Below are positions 1,307 to 18,869 of a DNA stretch of 32,839 bases, piece by piece. The DNA comes from Candidatus Uhrbacteria bacterium (GTDB taxonomy: Bacteria > Patescibacteriota > Patescibacteriia > JACQRZ01): the NCBI GenBank assembly GCA_016209345.1, contig JACQWH010000026.1:1-32839 (forward strand), given 5' to 3'. The first letter of the stretch is position 1. Each line of letters opens with the position of its first letter. The notes under the pieces were generated by a model. That model was not told where the DNA came from and searched no databases. It was given only the letters and a program-made list of their open reading frames with translations. The translations under genes and the position numbers were made by a program.

Positions 1307-2254
1307 ATGGTTGTTTCCGCCTTCATCATCGCACTGTTTTTTCTTTTCTATCTTTTGGGTAAAAGTGCGGATGTTGTTGTCAAGCGTGTTCGGATTATCA
1401 GCGAACGGCTTGGCATCCATGTTTTTTTCATGGGGATTATCCTGGGATTGTTTACGACGCTGCCCGAGATCACCATTGCGGTCAACTCGCTTATCAACAA
1501 CATTCCCGATATTTCACTGGGGAACCTCATGGGGGGATTTATTGTTTTGCTTGGGCTTATCTTGGGAACGAGTTTAATAGCGAGCCGGCGCGTGCATACG
1601 GACGGGAATCTCATGCATTTTGCGCCCATGCTCTGTTATTTTTTTCTCCCATTCCTTTTTTTGACCGACGGAGAGATGTCGCGCATTGAGAGCTTCGTTC
1701 TCGTTGTCGCATATTTTGTCGTCCTTGTGCACGTCTATCGTTCGTATAAGAACGATATCACGAAAGACAAGCAGATTGTTAAGATTCGCACCGCAACGAT
1801 ATTGAAAGATATTTTCATCATTTTTTTTGGTATCGTATCGCTGGCCCTCCTTTCCACGGGAATCATTCGTCTGACTGAAGGGTTCTTGCTCGAAGTACAC
1901 GTCTCTCAGTTTCTTATCGGCGTGCTGCTTTTTAGTGTCGGGACGAATTTGCCCGAGATTATCGTGGCATTTCGCGCATGGCAAAAGTCGATGAAAGAGC
2001 TTACGCTGAGTAATCTGGCAGGGTCTGCATTGGCCGATCCGTTGGTCATTGGCATCATGTCGTTCATTCAGCCCTACCATCTTCAGGTCAATGCCGTGTA
2101 TTATATTTTTATGGCATTCAATGCTTTGCTTTTCATCCTTGTCGGTATTTTTTATAAAACAGGGAAAGTATTGAGCAGAAAAGAGGGGATTGCGCTCCTC
2201 GCAATGTATGGTATCTTTCTTAGTGCAGAGCTCGCATTTGGACTTAAAATTTAA
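1307..2254 (+). CDS. CaCA-superfamily sodium/calcium (cation) exchanger
   Basis: The 315-residue product is very hydrophobic, with about ten membrane segments, the usual size of YrbG-like exchangers. It has two internally homologous alpha-repeats, the ion-binding signature of the family. Alpha-1 (about residues 47-80) contains TTLPEITIAV and LGNLMGG, with E54 as the likely ion ligand. Alpha-2 (about 203-242) contains SVGTNLPEIIVAF and LSNLAGSAL, with E217. Alpha-1 has TTLPE where many relatives have GTSLPE. The family exchanges Ca2+ (or other cations) against Na+ or H+ across the cytoplasmic membrane; which ion is used here cannot be told. No clear Shine-Dalgarno precedes the ATG. The next gene starts 12 bases downstream, so co-transcription is likely. 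Confidence 0.85.
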   Translation: MVVSAFIIALFFLFYLLGKSADVVVKRVRIISERLGIHVFFMGIILGLFTTLPEITIAVNSLINNIPDISLGNLMGGFIVLLGLILGTSLIASRRVHTDGNLMHFAPMLCYFFLPFLFLTDGEMSRIESFVLVVAYFVVLVHVYRSYKNDITKDKQIVKIRTATILKDIFIIFFGIVSLALLSTGIIRLTEGFLLEVHVSQFLIGVLLFSVGTNLPEIIVAFRAWQKSMKELTLSNLAGSALADPLVIGIMSFIQPYHLQVNAVYYIFMAFNALLFILVGIFYKTGKVLSRKEGIALLAMYGIFLSAELAFGLKI

Positions 2255-2266
2255 CCACGCGCATTT

Positions 2267-2638
2267 ATGATCAACGAAGGAGAAAAGAGAGAAGAAGATG
2301 ACGGGATCGATAGGGTCGTTCGTCCAGAGCTCGATTCATTCCTTACGGGGCTGCGCGATGCCATTCGCGGCGCAAACGCGGCCGTACAGGCGCGGAAGGA
2401 TGAGCTGGATTCCCTGCTTGACAAGCTTGCGCAGGCGGAAAGCAATCTTGCGGCGCTTGAGCACGATTCGCGACGCAAGTATGAACAAGTGCAGGCCCTT
2501 GCGGAAATGGAAAAAACGCTGAGAGAGATTCAGCACCTCACGAACCAAATGGGGACTCAGAATGCGGAGCAGCGTATGACCATACAGGCGATGGTTCAAA
2601 GTATTGAAGAGATTCTCGAGGCGACGGAGGAGAAGTAA
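2267..2638 (+). CDS. Small coiled-coil protein of unknown function
   Basis: The 123-residue protein is acidic at the N-terminus and then almost entirely heptad-like helix (about residues 25-120), rich in Ala, Glu, Gln and Leu, for example DELDSLLDKLAQAESNLAALE. It has no signal peptide, no membrane segment and no cysteine. It lies 12 bases after the exchanger gene and 3 bases before rsmE, whose Shine-Dalgarno (GGAGGAG) is inside the end of this gene, so the genes are probably in one transcript. I do not recognise a family; a scaffolding or oligomerising role is only a guess. Confidence 0.75.
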   Translation: MINEGEKREEDDGIDRVVRPELDSFLTGLRDAIRGANAAVQARKDELDSLLDKLAQAESNLAALEHDSRRKYEQVQALAEMEKTLREIQHLTNQMGTQNAEQRMTIQAMVQSIEEILEATEEK

Positions 2639-2641
2639 TCC

Positions 2642-3406
2642 ATGCGGCGCCATCGATTTTATCGTAAAGATTTTGTATCGACACATACCCTGCTTGAGGG
2701 TCGTGATATCACACATCAAGTCAGTCGAGTGCTCAGAATGAAAACGGGGGAGGAGATTGTGATATGGAATGGGGACGGGAAGGAGTATGTGTTTATGGTA
2801 GAAACCATAAGCGCAAAAGGGGTTCGCGGGCGCGTTGCGCGCATTGAGGAAAATACTTCCGAGCCCTCTGTACGCGTGACGCTGTATTGCGCGTTGCTCA
2901 AACGCGAGAATTTTGAGACCGTCTGCCAGAAGGCGACCGAAGCGGGCGTGTCGGGTATCGTACCGTTGATGACCGAGCGGACCGTCAAGGTGAAGATACA
3001 TTCTGATCGTGTGAGAAAAATAATACAGGAGGCCGCAGAGCAGTCCGGTCGGGCGCGCATTCCGGTATTATGCGACGCAATGAGTTTTTCCGAAGCGCTC
3101 AAGACGTGCGAAGGGATTGAGAGAGTTATTTTTTTTGATACGGCACAAAATGACATTTCGCATGACAGGTGCTTGCCCGGTCCTCAGGCGGGGAGAAAAC
3201 CCGATGTGATACGGGATCCTTTGGCCCAAGGTCTCGGGATGGCAGAAATTATTCACATATTCATCGGCCCTGAAGGCGGATGGAGCGATACGGAGCGTGC
3301 GGCCGCACAAAAGGCCGGACTCGATACTCGGTCACTGGGTCCGTTAACGCTTCGCGCTGAAACCGCGGCAATTGTTGCCTCATATCTGGCGGCGCATGGG
3401 TTATAG
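2642..3406 (+). CDS. rsmE: RsmE, 16S rRNA (uracil-1498-N3)-methyltransferase, with an insertion
   Basis: RsmE methylates N3 of U1498 in 16S rRNA using S-adenosylmethionine and is a SPOUT-fold enzyme. The 254-residue product has the N-terminal PUA-like part (HRFY, then VLRMKTGEEI and a VWNGDG-like turn) and the SPOUT knot with KRENFETVCQKATEAGVSGIVPLMTER, the conserved EQSGR, FIGPEGGWSDTE and SLGPLTLRAETAAI. A GGAGGAG Shine-Dalgarno (2628-2634) fixes the start. Residues 170-200, between VIFFDTAQ and IHIFIGPEGG, look like an extra segment: the family normally has a short loop there, and the DNA resembles a palindromic repeat in reverse orientation. Confidence 0.95.
   Translation: MRRHRFYRKDFVSTHTLLEGRDITHQVSRVLRMKTGEEIVIWNGDGKEYVFMVETISAKGVRGRVARIEENTSEPSVRVTLYCALLKRENFETVCQKATEAGVSGIVPLMTERTVKVKIHSDRVRKIIQEAAEQSGRARIPVLCDAMSFSEALKTCEGIERVIFFDTAQNDISHDRCLPGPQAGRKPDVIRDPLAQGLGMAEIIHIFIGPEGGWSDTERAAAQKAGLDTRSLGPLTLRAETAAIVASYLAAHGL
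3149..3241 (-). repeat. Palindromic repeat apparently inserted in frame within rsmE
   Basis: On the minus strand this segment reads GGATCCCG, spacer, CGGG, then CCCCGCCTGAGGACCGGG and ends near TGTCAT. This resembles the mutY insertion (GGATCCCGCC...GGCGGGATGACA) and the inner CCGCTGAGGA of the repeat at 448-524. It encodes about 30 residues (170-200) in a loop of RsmE without breaking the frame. Confidence 0.45.
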
Positions 3407-4752: not shown

Positions 4753-7700
4753 ATGAGGCATATATTTCGCAAAGCTCGACGGTGTGTTGAGAGGGTCATG
4801 TACATTACGACGATAGCATCAACAGTCCTCTGGACGCTCGGTCCGGCAGCACTGCCGGCCAATGCGACAATTAGCATACTTACATCAGTCTCAAGCGCAA
4901 CAAGTGCGCAGACCATCGGGCCGTCGAGCGTACCAACGGCAATATTCGGCATTAACGCGGTTGGGGACGGCGGTGAGAATTTTACTTCATTTTCTCTTGC
5001 TATTACTCCGTCAGCCGGTTTTGTGATGAGCGACCTCGCTGCGCTTGGCACCGGTGCCAGCTCGGGTATTGCTCTCTATCGCGACGATGGGGCAACCCAA
5101 GGATCGTTTGATGCCGCTACTGACGCAAATATCGCCCTGGGTCTTCCGCCTATCATAACTGACGGATCAACTCGCATTTCAAAGTTGATGCCCAGCGATT
5201 CGGTCGGCGTGAGCGCGACAAATCAGGTGGTGGGTTCGGCCGGACGAGACATGAATTTTGTGGTTGGTGATCTTATTTTTGGCAACACAACGGCAAATTC
5301 AGCATCCCTCAACACCTATGATTGGCACGTTGTGACGACAGCGGAAAATATTACGACTGATGCTGCGCCAACAACCTTGCGCCTTGACGCAAACGCAGGG
5401 GGCGCGCCGACATTTGCGGCAAGCACCAGGATTTCGCAATTGACACCCGCATCAACCGGCTCGTACGTCATTAACGGAACGAGCAATACTACAACGCCCG
5501 CATTGACAACCGGCGACATTATTTTTTATCAAACCGGAGCAGGCGCAGGAACATGGGGAATGGTGACCGGTAATTTTACCGCAGCAGCGTCTCCGGTGAA
5601 TGGAGCAAATCTTGGAAATGCAACCTATCGCATTAGCAAGTTGTCCGCGCTCACGGGTTCGTTTGTTGTTTCGGGAACGGATACGATTACGGCCCCGGGA
5701 ACAGGATATACCACGCCAGTTGTTGGAGATATCGTTCTGTATCGTTCTGGCGGACAGGCACTGTGGGGCATTGTGACAAACGCAACCTTGACCAGCGGAA
5801 CGTTTGCCGTTAATAACGCGGCTCTTCCGCCGGGGACCTATCAAATTAGCAAAGTGAATGCCTATACTCCCTCAAGTGCCTTGACATCCGCCATTCCCAC
5901 AGATCAAAACGCTTTTAATACCAGTGATCTCGTCTTTGGCATGCCGACGCAAAATCCGATAACAACTTCATATAATTGGCATATCACAACTGGCGATTCA
6001 TCCGGTAATGCAGCTAATTTTCGTCTTGATGATCGCATGAGCGCTCCGGCGTTTGGATTCTCCGCAATGATTGCGACCGGTGGCGCAGAGCCGGTTCCGG
6101 CAAACAATACCGGTACTAACGAGGGGTCAGATTATTATGTTGCGCTTCGCACCTCGGCATCCGCAGTCAATGGCCACGCTTTTACCGCGGGACTTGCACC
6201 GGGGACATTTGTGCTGACGGGCGGCGTTGCGGGATTACCGACAGAGACGCCTTCACAAACCTATACCATTGCGACAACCGCTCAGCAGTCGCAGTCGGCA
6301 GGGGCAAACACCACGGTCATGGACATGACCAACGGGTTTCTCAAGCTCAAACAGAGCAGTAACTTTAAGGCGGTTGCGCGTGTTCAGTTTGGCAGTACTG
6401 AAAATACAAAAACATTGACATCCATCGCGATTTCTTTTGCCACTGCAAACAGCACAACGCCGACATGGACCGCAAGCGGTGCAGTATCATCAGAACTTCT
6501 TGACCTTGCCGCAACCGGCGGCGGTATCTCGCTATGGAAAGACGGGGGAACCGCAGGGTTTGGCTTGAACGGCGCCGGCGATACGCAAGTTACCCTGGCC
6601 GCAAGTCCGGTATATGGCGCAAGCAACGCGTTTACCATTACTCCGGCAACAGCGCCAACTATTGCGTCGGATGATGTGTACTTTATCGTACTGAAATCCG
6701 ATACGTCCGGTGTGGCAAACAATAATGCATTTACCGTGAACATGGCAACAACCGCCATTACGACCAGCGGCACATCGCCGACAATCGGTGCGTTTCAGAC
6801 ACCGCCGATCGTTATGGATACCACGGTGCCGACGATTGCAAGCGTGTCAGATGTTCCAGGCCAGACAACAAAACTCAGTGTTCGATTCAGCGAGCCGGTG
6901 CGGAAGCTTAATGATGCAGGAGCTCTTACCACATCCGATTTGACCTATACCAATGATGCAACAAACGGATCAGGACGAACCGTGAGCTCGATTTCCCATA
7001 GTCCGGGCGCGGATATTGCAGAACTCACCATGAGCGGCGCTCTAGCGGCCGGTGATTTTGACGGCACACCGTCTCGGTTGGCGGCTTCCGGAGCAGATAA
7101 AATAGAAGATATGGCAGGCAATGCCATGGCAACAACGGCAACAAATCTTGGCAGCCCCTTGATCATTACAACCTCGGTTATTCCGGCAACCTATGTGGCA
7201 GCAGTTTATGATGCCACAACACCGCTTGTCACGTTTGCGGCTCAAGGCGGGGCAGGAACCTATACCTTTGCGGGAAACACACAAGCTGATACGGATGCGC
7301 TTGTCGCGCTTTTGGGCGCAAGTCCCCTTGCCGGCGCCACAGGAAAGCTCACCGGTACGGTTCAGGCAAATACCGCAGGAACCAGGAACGTCACGATAAA
7401 AGTGACCGACGGCGCAGCCGCAACCGCAACAAAACAATTTACGATTAACGTCGCGGCAACGCAGGGAGGCGGTGTTCCCGGATTGACAAATGTCACGCCG
7501 CCATCAGGTGCGCAGAGCGCAACAAATCTGTCAATCGCTATTACCGGCACGAATACGAGTTTTACCAGCGCCAGCACCGTCGCATTCCTACTGAACGGAA
7601 CAGCCGACACCAATATTACCGTCGGAACAGTGACGGCAAATAGTGCAACATCAATCACGGTTCCCATCACTAGCATTGCGGCGGGCGCGACCGCAGGCGC

Positions 7701-10700
7701 TCGGGATGTAAGAGTGACGAGCGGCAGTCAGGTTGTCACCATGCCGGGTGGATTTAATGTCACCGGAACGGTCGCGGCTGGGCTCAATCTCGTGTTTCCA
7801 ACCGCATCGGCAACGGGAATCCAGTTGCCTACGCCCGGATTTAATTTTAATCCCTCAACAAACACCACATTTACCCATTACCGTATTGTATTGAGCGCGA
7901 CGCAGGATTTTGCAACCGCGCTGTGGAACTATGTTTTTCCAAAGCCGGATGCGCAAGGTACGAATGGAAGTCATTGTACCGCGACTTCATGCAATGTGAA
8001 TTATTCAGCGGGAAACTTTCTCACAATCACCCCCGCGTCGACGCTGACGTCAAACACAACATATTACTGGAAAGTGGAGACCTATCAGGATCCCACACCA
8101 ACAACACAGTTTGCATCATCGGATGTAATAGATCAAAACAGGAAGGAAAACACGCCGGTTCGCAGTTTCACCACCTCGGCATCAGTGACGGATGTCCAGC
8201 CGCCGCAAATAGAACATCGTCCGGTTGTCCAGGCGCGCGCAAACGCGTTGGTTACCGTGTACGCGCGCGTGCTTGACAATATCGCAAGCGCGAGCACGAC
8301 GCCGGCCCTTTCCACGACATTGTCTGCCTGTGCAGGTTCCGGATGCACGCCCTCAACATCAACACTGCCAAGCGCGGATGCAAATGACGGCGTTGTTGCC
8401 GGAACGCATGCGCAGAACGGATACTATAGCTATGTTCTCCCGTCGGCGTTTATTACCGCAACCGTAGGAACTATTGTACGGTATTATATTACCGCCACTG
8501 ACGGCACCAATACGAACAATTTTTATCAGCCGGGCGGAACAACGCCGTTTCAGTTCGCAACAACGGCGGCTATCGCATCGAGCGGCGTGACCATTACCGG
8601 TACGGTAAAAGACACCAGCGACGCATGTCCTGCCGGTGTGCAGGGATCGCTTGTGTTTGCCGAAGGCAGCGGTTTTAGCGCGACGACAGGAGCGGATTGC
8701 GCCTATACATTGGGTGCGGCAAATAACGGATTGGCCGTAGGATTCCCCTATGACCTTGTTGTGGCAAAAGACGGATACTCAACCCAACGAAGAGATGCCG
8801 TTCCGGCAGGGTCAACAAGCATTGCTGTTCAACTGGGGCAGGGCGCTACCGGCGGATTTGGCGGAGACACGACGCGGCCGCGTGTACTGCGCTCAATGCC
8901 CGGTGACAAGATGCAGAATGTGCCGGGGAATGATTCAAACATGAGGATTTTGGTGGTGTTTGACAAACCAATGAGTCAGACATCGGTACTGACAAGTGGC
9001 AATATGGTGGTCAATTCCGTGAATGTTCAGACAGGGGTCCTTACCAACATTACCGCAAACGGGTCATGGGCGTATTATTCAACCTATACCATGCCGTTTG
9101 GTGGAACAGAATCAAATGTCGCGGTATGGTCGTTTTCCGGCACAAATACGTTTGGCGATAGCAAGACGATCGCGGTAAAGGTGACGCCAAGCGTTCTTGA
9201 CACATCAGGAAACGCCGTGCAGGGAAATTTGACTGACGGGAGTTATTCATTTTCGTTCACGACCGGCTCAAGTGCAACATCCGTTGGTTTCAACACGGCA
9301 ACCGGAACGTTTGCTGACGGTGGAGTGTTCGGTCAAGGCACAAACATTGCACCGCACGTGACAACAACGGCACCGTCCATGGGTTCGCCCAGCGTACCGC
9401 GCAATACGAAGATCATGATTAACTTTGACACCTCCATGGCCGATGATGCTGTGGGTACGTATACGCTCGCAAGCGGCGTGAAGCTGTTTGAGGTGTCCTC
9501 GGCAGGTGTCGAGACAGATGTCACGTCATTGGCAGTAAACGCCGTCACGCTGACATCTGATAAGAAAGCCGCAACCGTCACGCTTAAAACCACCTATCCA
9601 AGCGAATGCACCGGCGTGGCCTGTGGCGTATTTAAGGCAACCACTCGTTATCGCCTGAAGGTGCTCGGGTCGGCAAAAGCCGCAAACGGAATGACCATGC
9701 GCGCCCCGGGACAGGAAACGCAAGTGGCGTTTATGAGCGACTTTACAACATCCGCCTCTTCTGACACTGTTGCGCCGACCATTGTCGGATCTGATCCGAC
9801 GACGAATGCGGCCGATGTTCCTTCGATGCTTGGGTCGGTGAGCGTGTCGTTTGATAAGGACATGGATTCTTCATCAATTACGACCTCAACCATGACCCTG
9901 ACGACCGGCTCAACAGCGGTCACCGGCACGGTTGAGTATCGGCCGATGGAGCGCACCGCGTATTTTATTCCGTCGCGCGTATTGACGCCGACCACGCAAT
10001 ACACGCTCTCTCTTACCGCCGGAGTTCGGGGAATCAACGGTACGGCAATAGCGGCGGCAACGCGCGCGTTTACCACCGGCTCTGCCGACACGTCCGCGCC
10101 CACTGTGACGTCGCTGACAGCGGATGACACAAACATCTCAATATCATTCAGCAAACCGATGAACTCATCACCGGCAACCGATACGACAAACTTTACGTCC
10201 AGCGTACTGCGCGTTGCCAACTATACGGTGAAATACGGAACAGCGGGGTTTAACGCGGCAACCGCGGGTACAACACTTACACTTCCCGCGACTGCGCAGA
10301 TTACCTATGATGGGAAGAACAATGCGGCGATGATTTCCGGATACCGTCCGACGAGCACGACTGCGGCGCAAGTTCAGGGACAACAGCTCTATGTCGCGGT
10401 TGCAAACGCAAAGGACATCGGAGGAAACGCAATCAGCACCTCCGGGACCGCTCCGGATACCGCAAATACCAGCCGTGCAACCGTGCAGAACAGCGCGACC
10501 ACCCAAGGACAACTCGGGCCGATGACCATTACCAATGACATGATGAAAGCGGTTGGTGATTTTAAGCCAACCACATTTTCCTCTGCAACATTCGGATTCG
10601 CGCCGCAAACGGAAGTACGGCCGTTCAATATGATGACCGGCACCACCACAATTTACGGCGTACATTTGTCTCTCTCGCGGCAGATACCGGATGGAGGCGC

Positions 10701-13700
10701 CATCGTGCTTACCTTCCCGCAAGGGTTTAATGTATCCGGCGCAAAACAGGATATCAACTCTCCGAAACGCCGCGACATAAACGGGCCGGGCACCGGCACC
10801 GTCACGTTCAAGTGCCAGACGAACGTCGCGGGAATGTCCGGCGCGAAGTCCTGCGGAGGCGGCGCGGCAAATGCCGATGATACCGGAACCGCGCAAGGAG
10901 GTCTTGCCGATGACGGGGTTGTGGTAAACGCGAATGCGCGAACCATCACCATTTATGTGAGCGGGGCAACCAACAGCGAAGGACATGATGTGCTTGATTT
11001 TGACATCGGGGGCATCGTCAACTCAACCGTTCCAAAGGATTTCAACACGAGCGGATATACCGTGAGCATCGCGACAAAGAACGGTACGACAAATCTTGAA
11101 ACACTGAGCTCAGTGCCATTCTTTATCCAGTCGGCGGGGACCACCACCTATACGCTTACCGGAACGATTACCGCGACAAACAATAATCAGAGCGGAACGA
11201 TTTCGGTATTCCTTGACTCGCCAATGACCGGCCCGCTTGAGGCAACATCTGCGGATTTTGGCGGCGGACAAACGGCAACGTATTCTTTCTCCAATCTCCC
11301 GCCCGGTGATTATGGATTGAGAACAGAACCGTACGTAAAGATTAATGACACGACTGAATTTCTCGGGAAATTTCCGGAGCGCGTGATGATGAGCGCAAAC
11401 ACCGTGCGCAATTTTACGCTCTCAAGCGCGACCGCGGCAGGTACGGGAACCTCGGTAACGGTTTCCGTTGACGGACCGTCAAGTGAGCCCATTGATATTT
11501 TCGCAAATGGTCCGGCCGGATTCCGCGTGATGCAAAAAACGCTTGACACCAATGCCGGTGCTGAAAACTTTACGATTCGCCTGTCAGACGGCGACTGGTT
11601 CCTTGGGGTTGGTCCCCAAATGCCAAAAGGACAGATGTCCGGCCCGCCGCCTTCGCCGAGCTATCTCCCGCCGCGGCCGGTCAATATCCGTATCAGCGGC
11701 GCTACTTGTGTGATTGAGGGAACCACGACGTGTACCAAAGCATTTACTCTCACCGCATCAACGAAGGAAATACGCGGTATCGTGAAAGATCTCGCAAGCA
11801 AAGTTATAGCAAACGCCAATGTGTTTGCGTACTCACCGTCCGGAACATCAATGGGAAACTTTGCGAAAACAGACACCACCGGAACGTTTATTCTCAATGT
11901 CACCCAAGGAGTGTTTAATGTCGGCGCGGTTATTGAAGGCATGCCCCAATCAAAGGAAGTGCCGGTTGAGGTGGTAAATGACGTGACTACGGGCGCGAAT
12001 ACAAACCTCAAGATTGACGGTGCCGCAACAGCAGTCACGGCTACCGCGGCCGCAACATCTTTTGTGTTGAAGTTGGCAAAACCAGATTATACGATTTCCG
12101 GAAAAGTGACTGACGGGACCAATGTTATCAACGGCGCGTCTGTCTATGCATATAAGCAGGGTGCGCCCGGACGATCCGGCGCCGCAACAGACAGTTCCGG
12201 AAATTATTCCCTCTTTGTGTCAGCTGGTACATGGAGTGTCGGCGCCTTCTTGCCCCAATACGGAAATCTGACTGAACAGACCGTCATCGTCACAACGGCA
12301 AACGCGACGGATATCAATTTCTCGCCAGGGACATCCTACGCGGTCTCCGGAACCGTCACTGTTGGCGGCACCGCGCGGGAAGGAGCCCGAGTGCGCATTA
12401 AGAACAGTTCATACTTTAATGAAACATTTACCGATACACTCGGAGCGTACAGCTTTAATGTGCCGCAAGGAAACGGCTATGTCGTTGACGGATTCGTGCC
12501 GGGTTTTGGAGATATCGCGCCATTAGCCGCGTTTAATGTATCGGCGGCTGTACCGAACAAAGATCTTACGGTCGCGACCCTGCGCACTATCACGATGACG
12601 TTTTCCTCATCGGTTGCAAGCGCGTTTGTTGAACTCCGTTCAACAACAGGGGCGAATATCCGGAAGAAAATTGAGAATTCAACCACCGGAACGCTTTCGG
12701 CGCCTGACGGCAGTTATATCGTAAATATTGATATGCAGGGAGCGCCGATTCCGTTTACCGCCGTTGCCGCAACCGATGGAAGCACGACCTATGCGAGCGC
12801 GACAGGTATTATGACGGTTGCCGACGGTAATGAAGGACTTACCGTCACCGTTCCAACATTGCGAACGATTACGGTTACCGTTCGCGACGGAGCAAGCGCA
12901 TTATTGGCAGATGCGTGGGTTGAACTTATGAATCCGACCAGCGGTGAGCACTTCGGGAGCAAAACGGGCACAAACGGTCAGGCGACGTTGCGCGCGGCTG
13001 ATGGTTCATACTTTATCAACGCAATGAAGCCCGGGTATTACCGCGTGCCGACCTCATTGACAGTCAATGCGGCTGTCGGGACGCAGGCGCTTGTTCTTAC
13101 GGCAGCAACGAAAACAATAGCGGGTACTGTGCTTATCGGCACAACAGGCGCGGCAAATGCGTTTGTGAGAGCCGAAAAGCAGGGCGGTGGATTTGCCGGA
13201 GCAATGACTGATGCAAATGGGCAGTATACGCTCTCTGTGGCGGAAGGCATCTGGAGAGTATTTGCGCGATCCGACGGATATGCAGAGGCGGAACTGAGCG
13301 CCACTGTTGATACGACAACCGCATCGGCGATCGGTAAAGATATTACCCTTACCACAACTGTCACGGTGTCAGCACCGAAGTCAAAGCCGATGACGCCGTC
13401 AACGGGCGGCAGCATTGAAGATACATCGGCAGGTATTAAGGTGAACGTGCCGGCAAACGCGCTGGGCAGCTCATCGTCAGCCGGAAATATGCAGGTGAAG
13501 AAGACGACGAATTATACGCAGACAGAGACCGCGCGACCGGTCGCCGCAGTTGAGATTAGCGCGACTGACGCAAATGGCACCCCCATTAAAACATTGACAG
13601 AAAGCGTGACGGTTGAGCTCACCTATACGAAGTCAGAGCTTGCGACAACAGCATCCTCATCGGATTCGTCCATTAACACAATGTCAGAAATTGAAAAACT

Positions 13701-14904
13701 CGATGTTGGTTTCTGGGATGAATCGGTATCAAACTGGACGACATTGTCCACGACAACGACCTATGTTGACTCAACAGGAGCAGTCGTCACGAGTCCGTCC
13801 GAAGATCTTTCCAATGTTGCGAGTGTGAAATTGAGCGCCCTGACCGATCACTTCTCCTTGTTTGCGCCGGTAGTTCCAACCGATCCGTCAGCACCATCAG
13901 CGCCGACTAACTTCGTCACAGGCACATCGACGACCAGCACAATCAACTTGCAGTGGACCGCAGTAAGCGGCGCGACCGGTTATGACATCTATCGCAGCAC
14001 ATCGTCGGACGGCACCTTTAGCCGTATTGGTTCCGAGCCAACCGTGTCGAGCGGATCAACGGTCACCTATCAGGATACGGGACTGAGTGCCGGCACGGCG
14101 TACTTCTATAAGATTTCCGCGTTGAACAATAACGGCGAGTCAGCCGCGTCAAGCGCAGCAACAACGTCAACGGCATCTTCAACGTCGAGCAGCAGTTCAA
14201 GCAGCTCCGGAGGCGGAGGAGGAAGCAGCTATGTGGCGGCGGCATCGGCAGCAACAACAACCGCAGCAGCAAAGACGGAAACAGCGACAGCAGGCGCAAC
14301 AGCCGTGACGAGCGTCGGTGCTGGCAAATTTGAGATTACTGTCCCGGCAACGGCGGCAAAAGCATCCGCAACTCCCGCAACACCGGCAACTCCAGCTGTT
14401 CCGGGCGTCTCAGCGGCACAAGCAGCAGCACCGGCAACGCCCGCCCTTGCGGCAGAAAAAGTACTCACCGCTGTTCCTGATGCGAAAATTATCGCCCTTC
14501 CGTCGTTCTCACGCTATCTTGCGCAAGGAGCTCGCGGAAAAGATGTCGAAGCGCTCCAGCTTATCTTGCAGGCGAACGGGTACTATAAAGGAAAAGTATC
14601 AGGTATCTTGAATGCGGATACAGTCAAGGCGGTCAAGACGCTTCAGACCTCGGCAAAGATTGCCACGGCAAAGACGGCAGGATACGGCGATGTCGGTCCC
14701 AAGACGCGAGCGTTCCTGAACTCACTGGTTAAGGAAGCAAAGGCAGAGGTGAAGGCGGAGCAGCAATCCATAGACGCAAAAGCCCCGGCAAAACAAGAGA
14801 CGAAAAAAGAGACGGCGGCGCATTCCGTAAAAACAGAACAGCCATCATCATCCTCGTCGGGTGGGACGGCGCTTGATCTTCTAAAGAAATTGCAAAAGCA
14901 ATAA
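4753..14904 (+). CDS. Giant secreted multidomain surface protein with peptidoglycan-binding domain
   Basis: The 3383-residue product opens with a basic, hydrophobic signal peptide (about residues 1-38, Ala-X-Ala-like end). Domains in order: four degenerate repeats beginning RISKL/RISQL/QISKV (about 140-380); Ig-like and cadherin-like modules; an IPT/TIG-like domain (about 906-1006); SbsA-type Ig domains starting with (D)T..P.V (about 1372, 1530, 1672, 1779); a run of about seven carboxypeptidase-regulatory-like beta-sandwiches (about 2131-2859); a ZU5-like domain ending TDHFSLFAP (about 2875-3040); a fibronectin III domain (about 3046-3138); a Ser/Gly linker; and a PG_binding_1 domain with GKDVEALQLILQANGYY (about 3250-3328), then a Lys/Ala tail. 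There is no LPXTG motif or C-terminal membrane helix. The likely role is a wall-attached adhesin or sheath component. Mature cysteines are only twelve, in six local pairs. No Shine-Dalgarno is visible. Confidence 0.95.
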   Translation: MRHIFRKARRCVERVMYITTIASTVLWTLGPAALPANATISILTSVSSATSAQTIGPSSVPTAIFGINAVGDGGENFTSFSLAITPSAGFVMSDLAALGTGASSGIALYRDDGATQGSFDAATDANIALGLPPIITDGSTRISKLMPSDSVGVSATNQVVGSAGRDMNFVVGDLIFGNTTANSASLNTYDWHVVTTAENITTDAAPTTLRLDANAGGAPTFAASTRISQLTPASTGSYVINGTSNTTTPALTTGDIIFYQTGAGAGTWGMVTGNFTAAASPVNGANLGNATYRISKLSALTGSFVVSGTDTITAPGTGYTTPVVGDIVLYRSGGQALWGIVTNATLTSGTFAVNNAALPPGTYQISKVNAYTPSSALTSAIPTDQNAFNTSDLVFGMPTQNPITTSYNWHITTGDSSGNAANFRLDDRMSAPAFGFSAMIATGGAEPVPANNTGTNEGSDYYVALRTSASAVNGHAFTAGLAPGTFVLTGGVAGLPTETPSQTYTIATTAQQSQSAGANTTVMDMTNGFLKLKQSSNFKAVARVQFGSTENTKTLTSIAISFATANSTTPTWTASGAVSSELLDLAATGGGISLWKDGGTAGFGLNGAGDTQVTLAASPVYGASNAFTITPATAPTIASDDVYFIVLKSDTSGVANNNAFTVNMATTAITTSGTSPTIGAFQTPPIVMDTTVPTIASVSDVPGQTTKLSVRFSEPVRKLNDAGALTTSDLTYTNDATNGSGRTVSSISHSPGADIAELTMSGALAAGDFDGTPSRLAASGADKIEDMAGNAMATTATNLGSPLIITTSVIPATYVAAVYDATTPLVTFAAQGGAGTYTFAGNTQADTDALVALLGASPLAGATGKLTGTVQANTAGTRNVTIKVTDGAAATATKQFTINVAATQGGGVPGLTNVTPPSGAQSATNLSIAITGTNTSFTSASTVAFLLNGTADTNITVGTVTANSATSITVPITSIAAGATAGARDVRVTSGSQVVTMPGGFNVTGTVAAGLNLVFPTASATGIQLPTPGFNFNPSTNTTFTHYRIVLSATQDFATALWNYVFPKPDAQGTNGSHCTATSCNVNYSAGNFLTITPASTLTSNTTYYWKVETYQDPTPTTQFASSDVIDQNRKENTPVRSFTTSASVTDVQPPQIEHRPVVQARANALVTVYARVLDNIASASTTPALSTTLSACAGSGCTPSTSTLPSADANDGVVAGTHAQNGYYSYVLPSAFITATVGTIVRYYITATDGTNTNNFYQPGGTTPFQFATTAAIASSGVTITGTVKDTSDACPAGVQGSLVFAEGSGFSATTGADCAYTLGAANNGLAVGFPYDLVVAKDGYSTQRRDAVPAGSTSIAVQLGQGATGGFGGDTTRPRVLRSMPGDKMQNVPGNDSNMRILVVFDKPMSQTSVLTSGNMVVNSVNVQTGVLTNITANGSWAYYSTYTMPFGGTESNVAVWSFSGTNTFGDSKTIAVKVTPSVLDTSGNAVQGNLTDGSYSFSFTTGSSATSVGFNTATGTFADGGVFGQGTNIAPHVTTTAPSMGSPSVPRNTKIMINFDTSMADDAVGTYTLASGVKLFEVSSAGVETDVTSLAVNAVTLTSDKKAATVTLKTTYPSECTGVACGVFKATTRYRLKVLGSAKAANGMTMRAPGQETQVAFMSDFTTSASSDTVAPTIVGSDPTTNAADVPSMLGSVSVSFDKDMDSSSITTSTMTLTTGSTAVTGTVEYRPMERTAYFIPSRVLTPTTQYTLSLTAGVRGINGTAIAAATRAFTTGSADTSAPTVTSLTADDTNISISFSKPMNSSPATDTTNFTSSVLRVANYTVKYGTAGFNAATAGTTLTLPATAQITYDGKNNAAMISGYRPTSTTAAQVQGQQLYVAVANAKDIGGNAISTSGTAPDTANTSRATVQNSATTQGQLGPMTITNDMMKAVGDFKPTTFSSATFGFAPQTEVRPFNMMTGTTTIYGVHLSLSRQIPDGGAIVLTFPQGFNVSGAKQDINSPKRRDINGPGTGTVTFKCQTNVAGMSGAKSCGGGAANADDTGTAQGGLADDGVVVNANARTITIYVSGATNSEGHDVLDFDIGGIVNSTVPKDFNTSGYTVSIATKNGTTNLETLSSVPFFIQSAGTTTYTLTGTITATNNNQSGTISVFLDSPMTGPLEATSADFGGGQTATYSFSNLPPGDYGLRTEPYVKINDTTEFLGKFPERVMMSANTVRNFTLSSATAAGTGTSVTVSVDGPSSEPIDIFANGPAGFRVMQKTLDTNAGAENFTIRLSDGDWFLGVGPQMPKGQMSGPPPSPSYLPPRPVNIRISGATCVIEGTTTCTKAFTLTASTKEIRGIVKDLASKVIANANVFAYSPSGTSMGNFAKTDTTGTFILNVTQGVFNVGAVIEGMPQSKEVPVEVVNDVTTGANTNLKIDGAATAVTATAAATSFVLKLAKPDYTISGKVTDGTNVINGASVYAYKQGAPGRSGAATDSSGNYSLFVSAGTWSVGAFLPQYGNLTEQTVIVTTANATDINFSPGTSYAVSGTVTVGGTAREGARVRIKNSSYFNETFTDTLGAYSFNVPQGNGYVVDGFVPGFGDIAPLAAFNVSAAVPNKDLTVATLRTITMTFSSSVASAFVELRSTTGANIRKKIENSTTGTLSAPDGSYIVNIDMQGAPIPFTAVAATDGSTTYASATGIMTVADGNEGLTVTVPTLRTITVTVRDGASALLADAWVELMNPTSGEHFGSKTGTNGQATLRAADGSYFINAMKPGYYRVPTSLTVNAAVGTQALVLTAATKTIAGTVLIGTTGAANAFVRAEKQGGGFAGAMTDANGQYTLSVAEGIWRVFARSDGYAEAELSATVDTTTASAIGKDITLTTTVTVSAPKSKPMTPSTGGSIEDTSAGIKVNVPANALGSSSSAGNMQVKKTTNYTQTETARPVAAVEISATDANGTPIKTLTESVTVELTYTKSELATTASSSDSSINTMSEIEKLDVGFWDESVSNWTTLSTTTTYVDSTGAVVTSPSEDLSNVASVKLSALTDHFSLFAPVVPTDPSAPSAPTNFVTGTSTTSTINLQWTAVSGATGYDIYRSTSSDGTFSRIGSEPTVSSGSTVTYQDTGLSAGTAYFYKISALNNNGESAASSAATTSTASSTSSSSSSSSGGGGGSSYVAAASAATTTAAAKTETATAGATAVTSVGAGKFEITVPATAAKASATPATPATPAVPGVSAAQAAAPATPALAAEKVLTAVPDAKIIALPSFSRYLAQGARGKDVEALQLILQANGYYKGKVSGILNADTVKAVKTLQTSAKIATAKTAGYGDVGPKTRAFLNSLVKEAKAEVKAEQQSIDAKAPAKQETKKETAAHSVKTEQPSSSSSGGTALDLLKKLQKQ

Positions 14905-14926: not shown

Positions 14927-16429
14927 ATGATATACAGATATGTCATTTCGGCGCTGATTTTTTCTTTCTTGTTTCTTACCGGCGCGGTATCTGCCCAAGA
15001 GCAGAATCAGCAGCAAGATCAGGCGATTGGAGGCCAGCAGCAGAACATGCAGCAGGGCCAGCAACAGAATATACAGGGTCAACAGAAAGATATGCGGAGG
15101 GTGGACGGTGATATGCGAAAAGATATAAAAAATCCCCGCGAAGATGTTCAAGGGGGCAAAGATATGAGGCGCGATGGCGACAAGATGATGGACAATCAGG
15201 GAAAGACGAACCAGCTTCAGAATAAGCAGCAGCGCCAAGGTGCTCAGATGAAGGGGCAAGAAAATCAGAATCGCGGGAAGGAAGGCGAAATGATGATAGA
15301 TGAACAAGATCAAAATGGATGCGCCGAGGGAACAACCTGTGATGGTCCCAGCGAGGAAGAGATGGCAGAGCAAGAGAAACGTATGGAAGAACAAGAAAAG
15401 AAGCGCGATGAACAGCGGTTCAAACAGATGAAGCAGGGGATGAAGCAGTTTACCGGTGGCGTGAAAAGAATGAAATCAGAGCTATCAAAGCTTGAAAAAA
15501 AGCTTGCAAAATGCGGTGCCGGAATCCCCGAAGAGTTAAAGACGGCAATTGCCGCGAGCGAAGCGGCGGTGCCCAAGATCGAAGCGGCAAAGACCGCCGA
15601 CGAGCTAGAAGAGGTCATGGACAGTATTGGCGAGAATGGCGAGATGATGCGCGAGTGGGGCCCGAAAATGGGAGACCTTCATCGAGGATGCGACATGCTG
15701 AAACGAGCGGATCAGGATCTCAAGAAGATGAAAAAGGAAGTGACCCGACTCGGAAAAAAAGTAGCGGCACAAAAAAAGTTCGATCTCTCGGAGCTTCTGA
15801 ATGACTTGAAGGTTGAGTTTGACAAAATTGCTGCTGCCTTGCAGAAAGCAAAGGATCTCGCGAAGACCGATCCGGAGGGCGCGCTTGAAGCGCTCGACGA
15901 TGAGTTTTTCGACGGGTCATCCGATTTCTATCTTACACGCGAGGCGCTTGACATGGCACTCAATGTGACAAAGGGACTGAAACAATCCGACAGCGAAATC
16001 AAACGCTATACTCGGCTCATTACCCAGCTTGAGAAGCAGAAAAAAGATGTCGGAGAGCTTAAAGATCTTCTCGCCCAGCTCAAAAGCAAGCAAACGGAAA
16101 TCACCGCCCTTGTGAAACAGAAGAAGTTTGACCCCGAAGATCTCGTATCGCTTATAGAGGAGGCATTCGATGTGCGCGATGAGCTTGTCAATGCATTGGA
16201 AGGTCTCGGCGCGATCAAGGATTACATGCCGCAATTCAAGAGCGGACCGGGAGTCAAGTTTGATCTCCCGCCCGGATTCGAACGCCAACAGCAAACGCCA
16301 CAGCGGGAACAATTTCAGAACGATGAAGGCGAGCGACAGGAAAGGGGGCTGCAGAATATGGAATTTGACATGAATGATATTCAGTCCTTCTTCCAGAAGA
16401 CAGAGAATAAAACAGTTGCCTCGCTCTAA
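14927..16429 (+). CDS. Secreted Gln-rich and coiled-coil protein
   Basis: The 500-residue product begins with a clear signal peptide (MIYRYVISALIFSFLFLTGA, then VSAQ; cleavage near residue 24). A low-complexity zone rich in Gln, Asn, Met, Lys and Asp follows (about 25-120, units such as QQQNMQQGQQQN), then an acidic stretch with a close cysteine pair (NGCAEGTTC), and long charged helices typical of coiled coil (about 145-440). It ends with another Gln-rich tail. Two further cysteines lie at KKLAKCGAG and HRGCDML. It starts 22 bases after the giant gene and is followed by a strong terminator, so both are probably expressed together and may form one surface structure. No known family was recognised. 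Confidence 0.9.
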   Translation: MIYRYVISALIFSFLFLTGAVSAQEQNQQQDQAIGGQQQNMQQGQQQNIQGQQKDMRRVDGDMRKDIKNPREDVQGGKDMRRDGDKMMDNQGKTNQLQNKQQRQGAQMKGQENQNRGKEGEMMIDEQDQNGCAEGTTCDGPSEEEMAEQEKRMEEQEKKRDEQRFKQMKQGMKQFTGGVKRMKSELSKLEKKLAKCGAGIPEELKTAIAASEAAVPKIEAAKTADELEEVMDSIGENGEMMREWGPKMGDLHRGCDMLKRADQDLKKMKKEVTRLGKKVAAQKKFDLSELLNDLKVEFDKIAAALQKAKDLAKTDPEGALEALDDEFFDGSSDFYLTREALDMALNVTKGLKQSDSEIKRYTRLITQLEKQKKDVGELKDLLAQLKSKQTEITALVKQKKFDPEDLVSLIEEAFDVRDELVNALEGLGAIKDYMPQFKSGPGVKFDLPPGFERQQQTPQREQFQNDEGERQERGLQNMEFDMNDIQSFFQKTENKTVASL

Positions 16430-17735: not shown

Positions 17736-17873
17736 AAGGGCAAGAGTAAATATCAAATAACAAAGCCCAAATGTCAAATCAAGATCAAAATTCAAAGTCA
17801 AAAGGAGCAGTCATTTGGATTTAGGATTTGATTTGATATTAGGATTTTGACATTAGGTTTTATTATATATCCC
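17736..17873. repeat. AT-rich long imperfect inverted repeat (copy 1 of 3)
   Basis: The left part is A-rich (CAAATGTCAAATCAAGATCA) and the right part is T-rich (GGATTTGATTTGATATTAGG), forming a long imperfect hairpin across the whole intergenic gap. Similar elements fill 25348-25530 and 32655-32839. Confidence 0.55.
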
Positions 17874-18869
17874 ATGGCCCTCCTAAAACTTCTTCTCATC
17901 TTCACGTCAATCGCCGGTTTTTTTCTGACGCTGTATATAGCGCGCAAGAAGCATGCGCACGAAAAGATGCTCTGCCCAATCGGCGGCAGATGCGAGCACG
18001 TCATGCATAGCGAGTACGCACGTTTTTTCGGCATGCCGCTTGAGCATATCGGCTTATCGTATTACGCGCTTATTTTTGTCGCGTATACGACGTTTTTCAT
18101 TGCGCCTGATTTTTCGCACCCTCTGGTATTGCTTGCTCTGATCGGGATCACGATCAGTGCTTTTTTGTTTTCCGCATACCTTACGTTTATCCAGGCATTT
18201 ACCCTCAAGGAGTGGTGCGCGCTGTGCCTTGTCTCGGCGGGTTTCTGTACGGTGCTATTTGCAACCGCCGTCATCACTTCGGACGGATCGCTTCTGCCAC
18301 TGCTTGCGGCATACGAACCGCTTATTGATACCGCGCATTTGTTCGTGCTTGCCGTCGGACTTGGGACAGCGACTGTTGGCGATATTTTCTTCTTCAAATT
18401 TTTAAAGGATTTCCATATTTCCGAATGGGAACACGATGTGCTGACGACTATATCGCAGGTTACGTGGTTCACGCTTGCCGCTATCATTCTTTCCGGCGCC
18501 GGACTTGCGTTGGCGCGGGTGGAGGATATCGGAGCACCATCCGCCATGCAGGTTTCCTGGATAGCGCTTGCGGTCATCATCGCGAACAGCGCCGCCGTTC
18601 ATTTGAGCATCCTGCCGCGACTCATCCATATCAGCATGGGGGAAAAACATCGGCATACCCCCGGCGAATTGCATTCAATACAGCGTTTTATTTTCACCTC
18701 CGGAGCGGTTTCGCTCGTATCATGGTATGTCTTATTTCTCTTGGCAATCGCGCGCGACATCTCGCTCTCATTTCAGGCGCTTCTGGTCACCTATGTTGGT
18801 GTTCTTGTATGCGCGGCGATAGGCGGACGCATGATGGAACATATTCTTTCAAAACAGCAGCACCGGTGA
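17874..18869 (+). CDS. Vitamin K epoxide reductase (VKOR) family membrane oxidoreductase
   Basis: Bacterial VKOR homologues reoxidise DsbA-like proteins and pass electrons to quinones, driving disulfide formation outside the membrane. The 331-residue product has the four redox cysteines: C34 and C40 in MLCPIGGRCEHVMHSEY and the membrane-embedded C115-A-L-C118 in EWCALCLV. The conserved Ser and the MPLEHIGLSYYAL segment follow the loop pair as in the family. About four helices make the VKOR core (1-130), and a further set of membrane segments follows (about 145-325), not typical of single-domain VKOR. I start at ATG 17874 because the frame upstream (to 17847) is repeat DNA. No thioredoxin-fold partner lies in the window. 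The ileS gene starts 23 bases downstream. Confidence 0.9.
   Translation: MALLKLLLIFTSIAGFFLTLYIARKKHAHEKMLCPIGGRCEHVMHSEYARFFGMPLEHIGLSYYALIFVAYTTFFIAPDFSHPLVLLALIGITISAFLFSAYLTFIQAFTLKEWCALCLVSAGFCTVLFATAVITSDGSLLPLLAAYEPLIDTAHLFVLAVGLGTATVGDIFFFKFLKDFHISEWEHDVLTTISQVTWFTLAAIILSGAGLALARVEDIGAPSAMQVSWIALAVIIANSAAVHLSILPRLIHISMGEKHRHTPGELHSIQRFIFTSGAVSLVSWYVLFLLAIARDISLSFQALLVTYVGVLVCAAIGGRMMEHILSKQQHR

Follow-up and report, generated by a model that had tools for sequence, protein, structure and literature searches.

Patescibacteria are mostly uncultured, and large attachment-type surface proteins have already been reported among them. In Ca. Peribacter riflensis, large exported proteins that vary between strains, some of them very rich in cysteine, have been proposed to serve both attachment and rigidity, and the genome encodes one disulfide-formation protein (PMC4736985). 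Similarly, proteins above about 1,400-1,500 aa that bear FN3 as well as other adhesion domains have been proposed to attach Vampirococcus lugosii and Strigamonas methylophilicida to their hosts (PMC8080830, PMC13059738). Here we describe a giant surface protein encoded in a 32,839-nucleotide stretch of DNA (the window) from a member of Ca. Uhrbacteria. Its size, export signal and paired cysteines make it a candidate for the large exported cysteine proteins of Patescibacteria; like the Peribacter proteins it is very large, exported and cysteine-bearing, with homologues in Peri-/Peregrinibacteria (L049, L051), but the Peribacter cluster proteins contain about 7% Cys, whereas the giant contains 0.4%, as sparse single pairs in a conserved family of Ig-like arrays (PMC4736985). 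The Vampirococcus and Strigamonas giants belong to other classes, have other domain sets and are likened to it by description; the word 'disulfide' is absent from both texts (PMC8080830, PMC13059738). The giant is a new family among proteins of a known kind, and what it adds is that cysteines come and go in pairs, that anchors are exchangeable and that the shaft is apparently mosaic.

Two further groups invite comparison. Gram-positive Ig-array proteins and pilins of the TIE, SdrD, BcpA, RrgB and SpaC type carry isopeptide, ester or thioester cross-links and are anchored by sortase through LPXTG motifs. The giant resembles them as a surface string of beta-sandwiches with internal covalent bracing (putative disulfides in its case), but differs in its Cys pairs and its PG_binding_1 domain. 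The S-layer proteins SbsC and Sap (SLH/Ig-type) also combine an Ig-like array with a wall-binding module, and from these the giant differs in its patchy distribution, very great length and variable N-terminus. In our judgement, the giant is probably a wall-anchored, disulfide-stapled stalk or adhesin made of an Ig-like array, borne by a cell of the Ca. Uhrbacteria type.

The 3383-residue reading frame reported in the first-pass annotation is real, and its gene occupies about 1% of the 1.06 Mb genome. Its nearest homologue lies in G006 (JACQSC010000001.1, labelled Ca. Uhrbacteria). The features of the window gene are as follows.

4753..14904, + strand: giant surface protein gene, 3383 aa (open frame, ATG start, homologues along most of its length)
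4753..4872, + strand: N-terminal export signal (residues 1-40 approximately), with a TTxxLW(S/T)(L/M)G motif common to giant homologues (sequence, alignment)
4873..6327, + strand: N-terminal region of residues 41-525, variable, Cys-free and presumably distal (36-64% identity and pS 0.57-0.78 against G006)
6328..13977, + strand: conserved shaft (residues 526-3075) of Ig-like, Big_5 and CarboxypepD_reg-like domains (identity to G006, Pfam, AF2 models)
8866..9264, + strand: Big_5 Ig-like domain (residues 1372-1504; Pfam PF13205, E 4.6e-11)
9763..10077, + strand: Big_5 Ig-like domain (residues 1671-1775; Pfam PF13205)
11770..13332, + strand: carboxypeptidase-regulatory-like domain array (residues ~2340-2860; PF13620), no Cys, modelled as a beta-strand array
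13897..14163, + strand: fibronectin type III domain (residues 3049-3137; Pfam PF00041)
14164..14532, + strand: Ser/Gly/Ala-rich linker, largely predicted disordered (pLDDT < 50, model residues 935-1036)
14533..14712, + strand: PG_binding_1 wall-binding domain (Pfam PF01471 match at residues 3261-3304, E 2.7e-7)

Altogether, the Pfam matches comprise CarboxypepD_reg (PF13620, in six stretches), Big_5 (in three), a single FN3 domain and the C-terminal PG_binding_1 domain. The N-terminal 1,000 residues are free of Cys beyond the signal, within which C11 is the sole Cys, and are almost without Pfam matches; residues 41-525 have none, and no ligand-binding domain was recognised in the N-terminal region. 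The possibility that the LWSxG motif is a genome-wide sorting signal was ruled out, as the giant was the only match to the motif profile in the genome. Structure models (AF2) of residues 1003-2112 and 2210-3383 both predicted strings of beta-sandwich domains (mean pLDDT 77 and 71, respectively), with a disordered linker preceding the wall-binding domain in the second. In Foldseek searches, the top matches of the C-terminal half included TIE, PitA, SdrD, BcpA, RrgB and SpaC, which are surface proteins and pilins of Gram-positive bacteria, and those of the core model included SbsC and Sap, both S-layer proteins. For both models the TM-scores were very low (<=0.27) because flexible arrays fail to superpose, and it is therefore the fold class alone that these matches support. 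A sequence search of solved structures with a profile of residues 1003-2112 gave no match. Taken with the Big_5, CarboxypepD_reg and FN3 domains, the low-TM Foldseek matches place the protein among Ig-like/CnaB-like domain arrays.

The first-pass annotation had called the protein wall-bound, and the C-terminal PG_binding_1 domain, which scores 31-37 bits against a Pfam cut-off of 23 and is the sole copy found in the genome, is consistent with that description. The C-terminus (ending ...PSSSSSGGTALDLLKKLQKQ) lacks the LPXTG motif and the membrane segment that sortase anchoring, along with a basic tail, would require, and Pfam found no SLH domain in the window protein. Across the family, the C-terminal modules vary. 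PG_binding_1 ends the window protein and its counterparts in G006, L053 and L063; three SLH repeats form the C-terminal end of the Peri-/Peregrinibacterial homologues L049 and L051; an 'LRWV/LRWI' module is found in L048 and L064; and six homologues (L047, L050, L061, L062, L043 and L037) share an unnamed two-repeat module ending '...WDxVRAIAYSGAxR'. Alignment of these six C-termini gives the last module a length of about 125 residues; Pfam did not recognise it in L047 (FN3 aside) or in L061, nor did NCBIfam in L047, and it is likely to be a Patescibacterial surface anchor. Because the same type of array is joined to differing wall or surface modules, an anchoring role for these modules is supported. 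A set of shorter homologues (L038, L039, L042 and L044; 1,391-1,559 aa) has a C-terminal membrane segment in place of the wall-binding domain and six mature Cys, or three pairs, with one extra Cys inside the membrane segment of L044. G006 carries both the long giant and a shorter homologue with a membrane segment.

The SLH repeats of the Peri-/Peregrinibacterial homologues, the appearance of SbsC and Sap among the matches of the core model and a composition rich in Thr, Ala, Ser and Gly would all suit a main S-layer protein, with the Ig array tiling the surface and the C-terminal module pinning the lattice to the wall. We regard this reading as unlikely, though worth weighing, given how the family is distributed. 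A core homologue was present in only 16/57 genomes of relatives within the class, other families included, and none was found in the family members G005 and G009; furthermore, homologues are between about 2,100 and 4,823 aa long, with a variable N-terminus. Codon bias was no stronger than in a housekeeping gene (ENC 50 vs 49 for IleRS) and thus gave no hint that the giant is very highly expressed, which is weak evidence in slow growers, and ribosomal protein S12, the intended yardstick of expression, gave no match in this incomplete genome. Core homologues were also identified in 25 named public contigs from Uhr-, Magasanik-, Falkow-, Jackson-, Wildermuth-, Peri-/Peregrini- and other Patescibacteria. 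One contig with a giant of Patescibacterial type, L055, is labelled Nanoarchaeota and is probably mis-binned. ECF sigma factor-like genes lie near, or divergent from, the giant in G020 (L036 3290-3793), G027 (L041 4068-4640) and G029 (L035 1613-2173), where the adjoining gene may encode an anti-sigma factor.

The first-pass annotation had described twelve cysteines in six local pairs; both the count and the pairing are borne out, with three of its positions shifted by one residue (1081 is 1080, and 2318/2326 is 2319/2327). The pairs and their occurrence in relatives are listed here.

7975..7992, + strand: Cys pair 1 (1075/1080); shared as a pair by 11 relatives, half-pairs in none
8329..8346, + strand: Cys pair 2 (1193/1198); shared as a pair by 9 relatives
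8626..8700, + strand: Cys pair 3 (1292/1316), in a CarboxypepD_reg-like domain; shared as a pair by 9 relatives
9607..9624, + strand: Cys pair 4 (1619/1624), in an Ig-like domain loop; in the window protein and G006, at neither position in G042, G049, G002 or G001
10813..10854, + strand: Cys pair 5 (2021/2034), in a low-confidence model loop; pair in 6/6 close homologues
11707..11733, + strand: Cys pair 6 (2319/2327), in a predicted beta-hairpin; pair in 5/6 close homologues, Val/Val in G002

The gaps within pairs (5, 5, 24, 5, 13 and 8 residues) are set against gaps of 94-397 residues between pairs, and when 12 Cys were placed at random 1,000,000 times, six neighbouring pairs with gaps <=24 never arose. 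Pair 6 falls on modelled strands 109-112 and 119-123 of the 2210-3383 model. The proposal of one disulfide per domain stands in so far as a second one is not apparent in any domain; as a general rule it fails, since most domains of the array have none, and the Cys-pair domains are six within a longer array.

The same pattern was found in relatives. In 26 homologues, 286 of the 288 core Cys have a partner within 45 residues, leaving two unpaired where random placement gave 172 +/- 9 (minimum 142 in 2000 trials). At 12 of the 13 pair positions compared, both Cys occur in exactly the same sequences, with no half-pair. The remaining position, 2319/2327, shows two apparent half-pairs (L054, L057), each with two Cys four residues apart at that place, and these are probably misalignments. 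The number of Cys is even in 22/26 near-complete homologues. These counts come from related sequences and are not independent events, but structural disulfides would be expected to leave such a pattern. As Cys pairs have been gained and lost as units in relatives, local disulfides in the giant family, as first proposed for the window protein, are strongly supported by these comparisons. From the pairing, which evolution attests, we infer that the bonds are actually formed and that they brace the loops mechanically.

Paired presence and absence would be expected of metal-binding or redox-active sites, and it is the details of the pairs that make this second reading highly improbable. Their spacings differ widely, both among pairs and among relatives, as do their positions among relatives; the window protein has no CxxC pattern; His is scarce (0.4%); and DsbA-like proteins are nearly universal in carriers, having been found in 33/34 giant-bearing genomes. 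The giant has what a substrate of the DsbA/VKOR pathway would have, namely an even number of paired Cys in an exported protein of a genome with DsbA and VKOR.

The first-pass annotation had linked the giant to a VKOR homologue 3 kb downstream, and the genes concerned are these.

14927..16429, + strand: secreted Q-rich/helical protein, the giant's downstream neighbour in four family members (beside the giant in G001, G002 and G008)
17847..18869, + strand: long VKOR homologue (340 aa), a locus neighbour (PF07884, E 5e-23)

The long VKOR matches the VKOR profile and keeps the CPIGGRC and WCALC motifs and the loop cysteine pair. In favour of a dedicated pair of substrate and oxidase, the giant and the long VKOR keep their order in the close relative G006, and in G042, of another family, a VKOR-thioredoxin fusion immediately follows the giant. 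However, we hold such a pair to be very unlikely, because each gene occurs without the other. In G004, the MutY-Qrich-PDDEXK-VKOR order is present with no giant, and in G010 the PDDEXK-VKOR genes lie away from its giant homologue; conversely, G001, G002 and G008 have a giant and a canonical DsbA-VKOR pair only, with no long VKOR. In the window's own genome a further VKOR directly adjoins a DsbA-like gene on a different contig (contig C33, L085 2687-3809), as is usual for genes of this pathway. A specific link between the giant and its downstream VKOR is therefore unsupported.

Nor did relatives with the giant always carry VKOR, as the link would have predicted: VKOR was found in 11/16 giant-positive vs 16/41 giant-negative genomes (Fisher p 0.075), and VKOR or DsbB in 13/16 vs 22/41 (p 0.073), an enrichment that is confounded by kinship and suggestive at most. 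DsbB as a substitute for VKOR fits G003, G029 and G073, where it occurs in place of VKOR, and fails for G016, G020 and G049, where profiles found neither although the homologues keep paired Cys. The one weak match to VKOR in G049 proved to be a membrane protein of 148 aa that has no CxxC. Nothing on VKOR in Patescibacteria was found in the top-ranked open-licence literature.

Several other features of these loci may be recorded. The L085 DsbA-like/VKOR pair adjoins DoxX-like and HtrA-like genes, and in G042 (L031 5581-7146) the fusion is followed by two DoxX-like genes and a polytopic membrane protein that on inspection looks like CcdA, although its best NCBIfam match, a weak one, is ArsG. The Q-rich protein has two conserved Cys about 60 residues apart, and its relative in G004 occurs without a giant. 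Finally, two perfect inverted repeats lie near the start of the window, in a part that appears to be non-coding, at 269-310 (21 bp arms, no spacer) and 361-412 (25 bp arms, 2 bp spacer).

Comparison with G006, which is labelled as a different genus of the same family, also suggests how the gene has evolved. Residues 526-3075 are 80-100% identical (pS 0.16-0.65), whereas identity falls to 36-64% in residues 1-525 (pS 0.57-0.78), to 35-74% in the C-terminal 300 residues (pS 0.57-0.83) and to 51-72% in the neighbouring genes (n=5; pS 0.68-0.82). Set against L030/L046, the central 2,550 residues of the window protein are thus far closer to another genus, synonymous sites included, than the ends or the neighbour genes. 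Codon bias was ruled out as the cause of the low synonymous divergence of the shaft, ENC being about equal across all giant segments and IleRS. Purifying selection that acts on the protein cannot reduce divergence at synonymous sites in this way, so that, with the five neighbour genes taken as background, the likeliest explanation is that recombination has exchanged the central segment. Furthermore, in a tree of the core the Peri-/Peregrinibacterial and Uhrbacterial sequences fall into one fully supported group, which suggests transfer of the giant core between classes, in one direction or the other. A plasmid search with the IleRS region gave no match. We offer, tentatively, the idea that Patescibacteria swap stapled fibres as mosaic cassettes, the shaft recombining at the same chromosomal site while tip and anchor are replaced. 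If this is true, cassette exchange would alter specificity for a host or neighbour, and the fibre would not have to be rebuilt.

In summary, the sequence and models point to a fibre that would be exported through its N-terminal signal and, once across the membrane, would fold into an extended series of beta-sandwiches of the Ig-like, CarboxypepD_reg-like and FN3 kinds, as Pfam and AF2 predict. The C-terminal peptidoglycan-binding domain, behind its flexible linker, would hold this fibre on the cell, and the variable N-terminal domains, taken as distal from the position of the anchor, would face outward and contact other cells or surfaces. One short disulfide staple in each of six domains may fasten a loop or hairpin so that it resists unfolding and attack by proteases, and these staples would most likely be made by the general DsbA-like machinery with VKOR or DsbB and not by a dedicated neighbour gene. 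A role in contact with a host or neighbour, as first proposed, is plausible. The family offers a defined and widespread fibre, with a conserved shaft, a variable tip and an exchangeable anchor, that bears on how these bacteria attach to their partners, and it leads to the prediction that disulfide formation, by DsbA with VKOR or DsbB, is important to the surface of these reduced cells.
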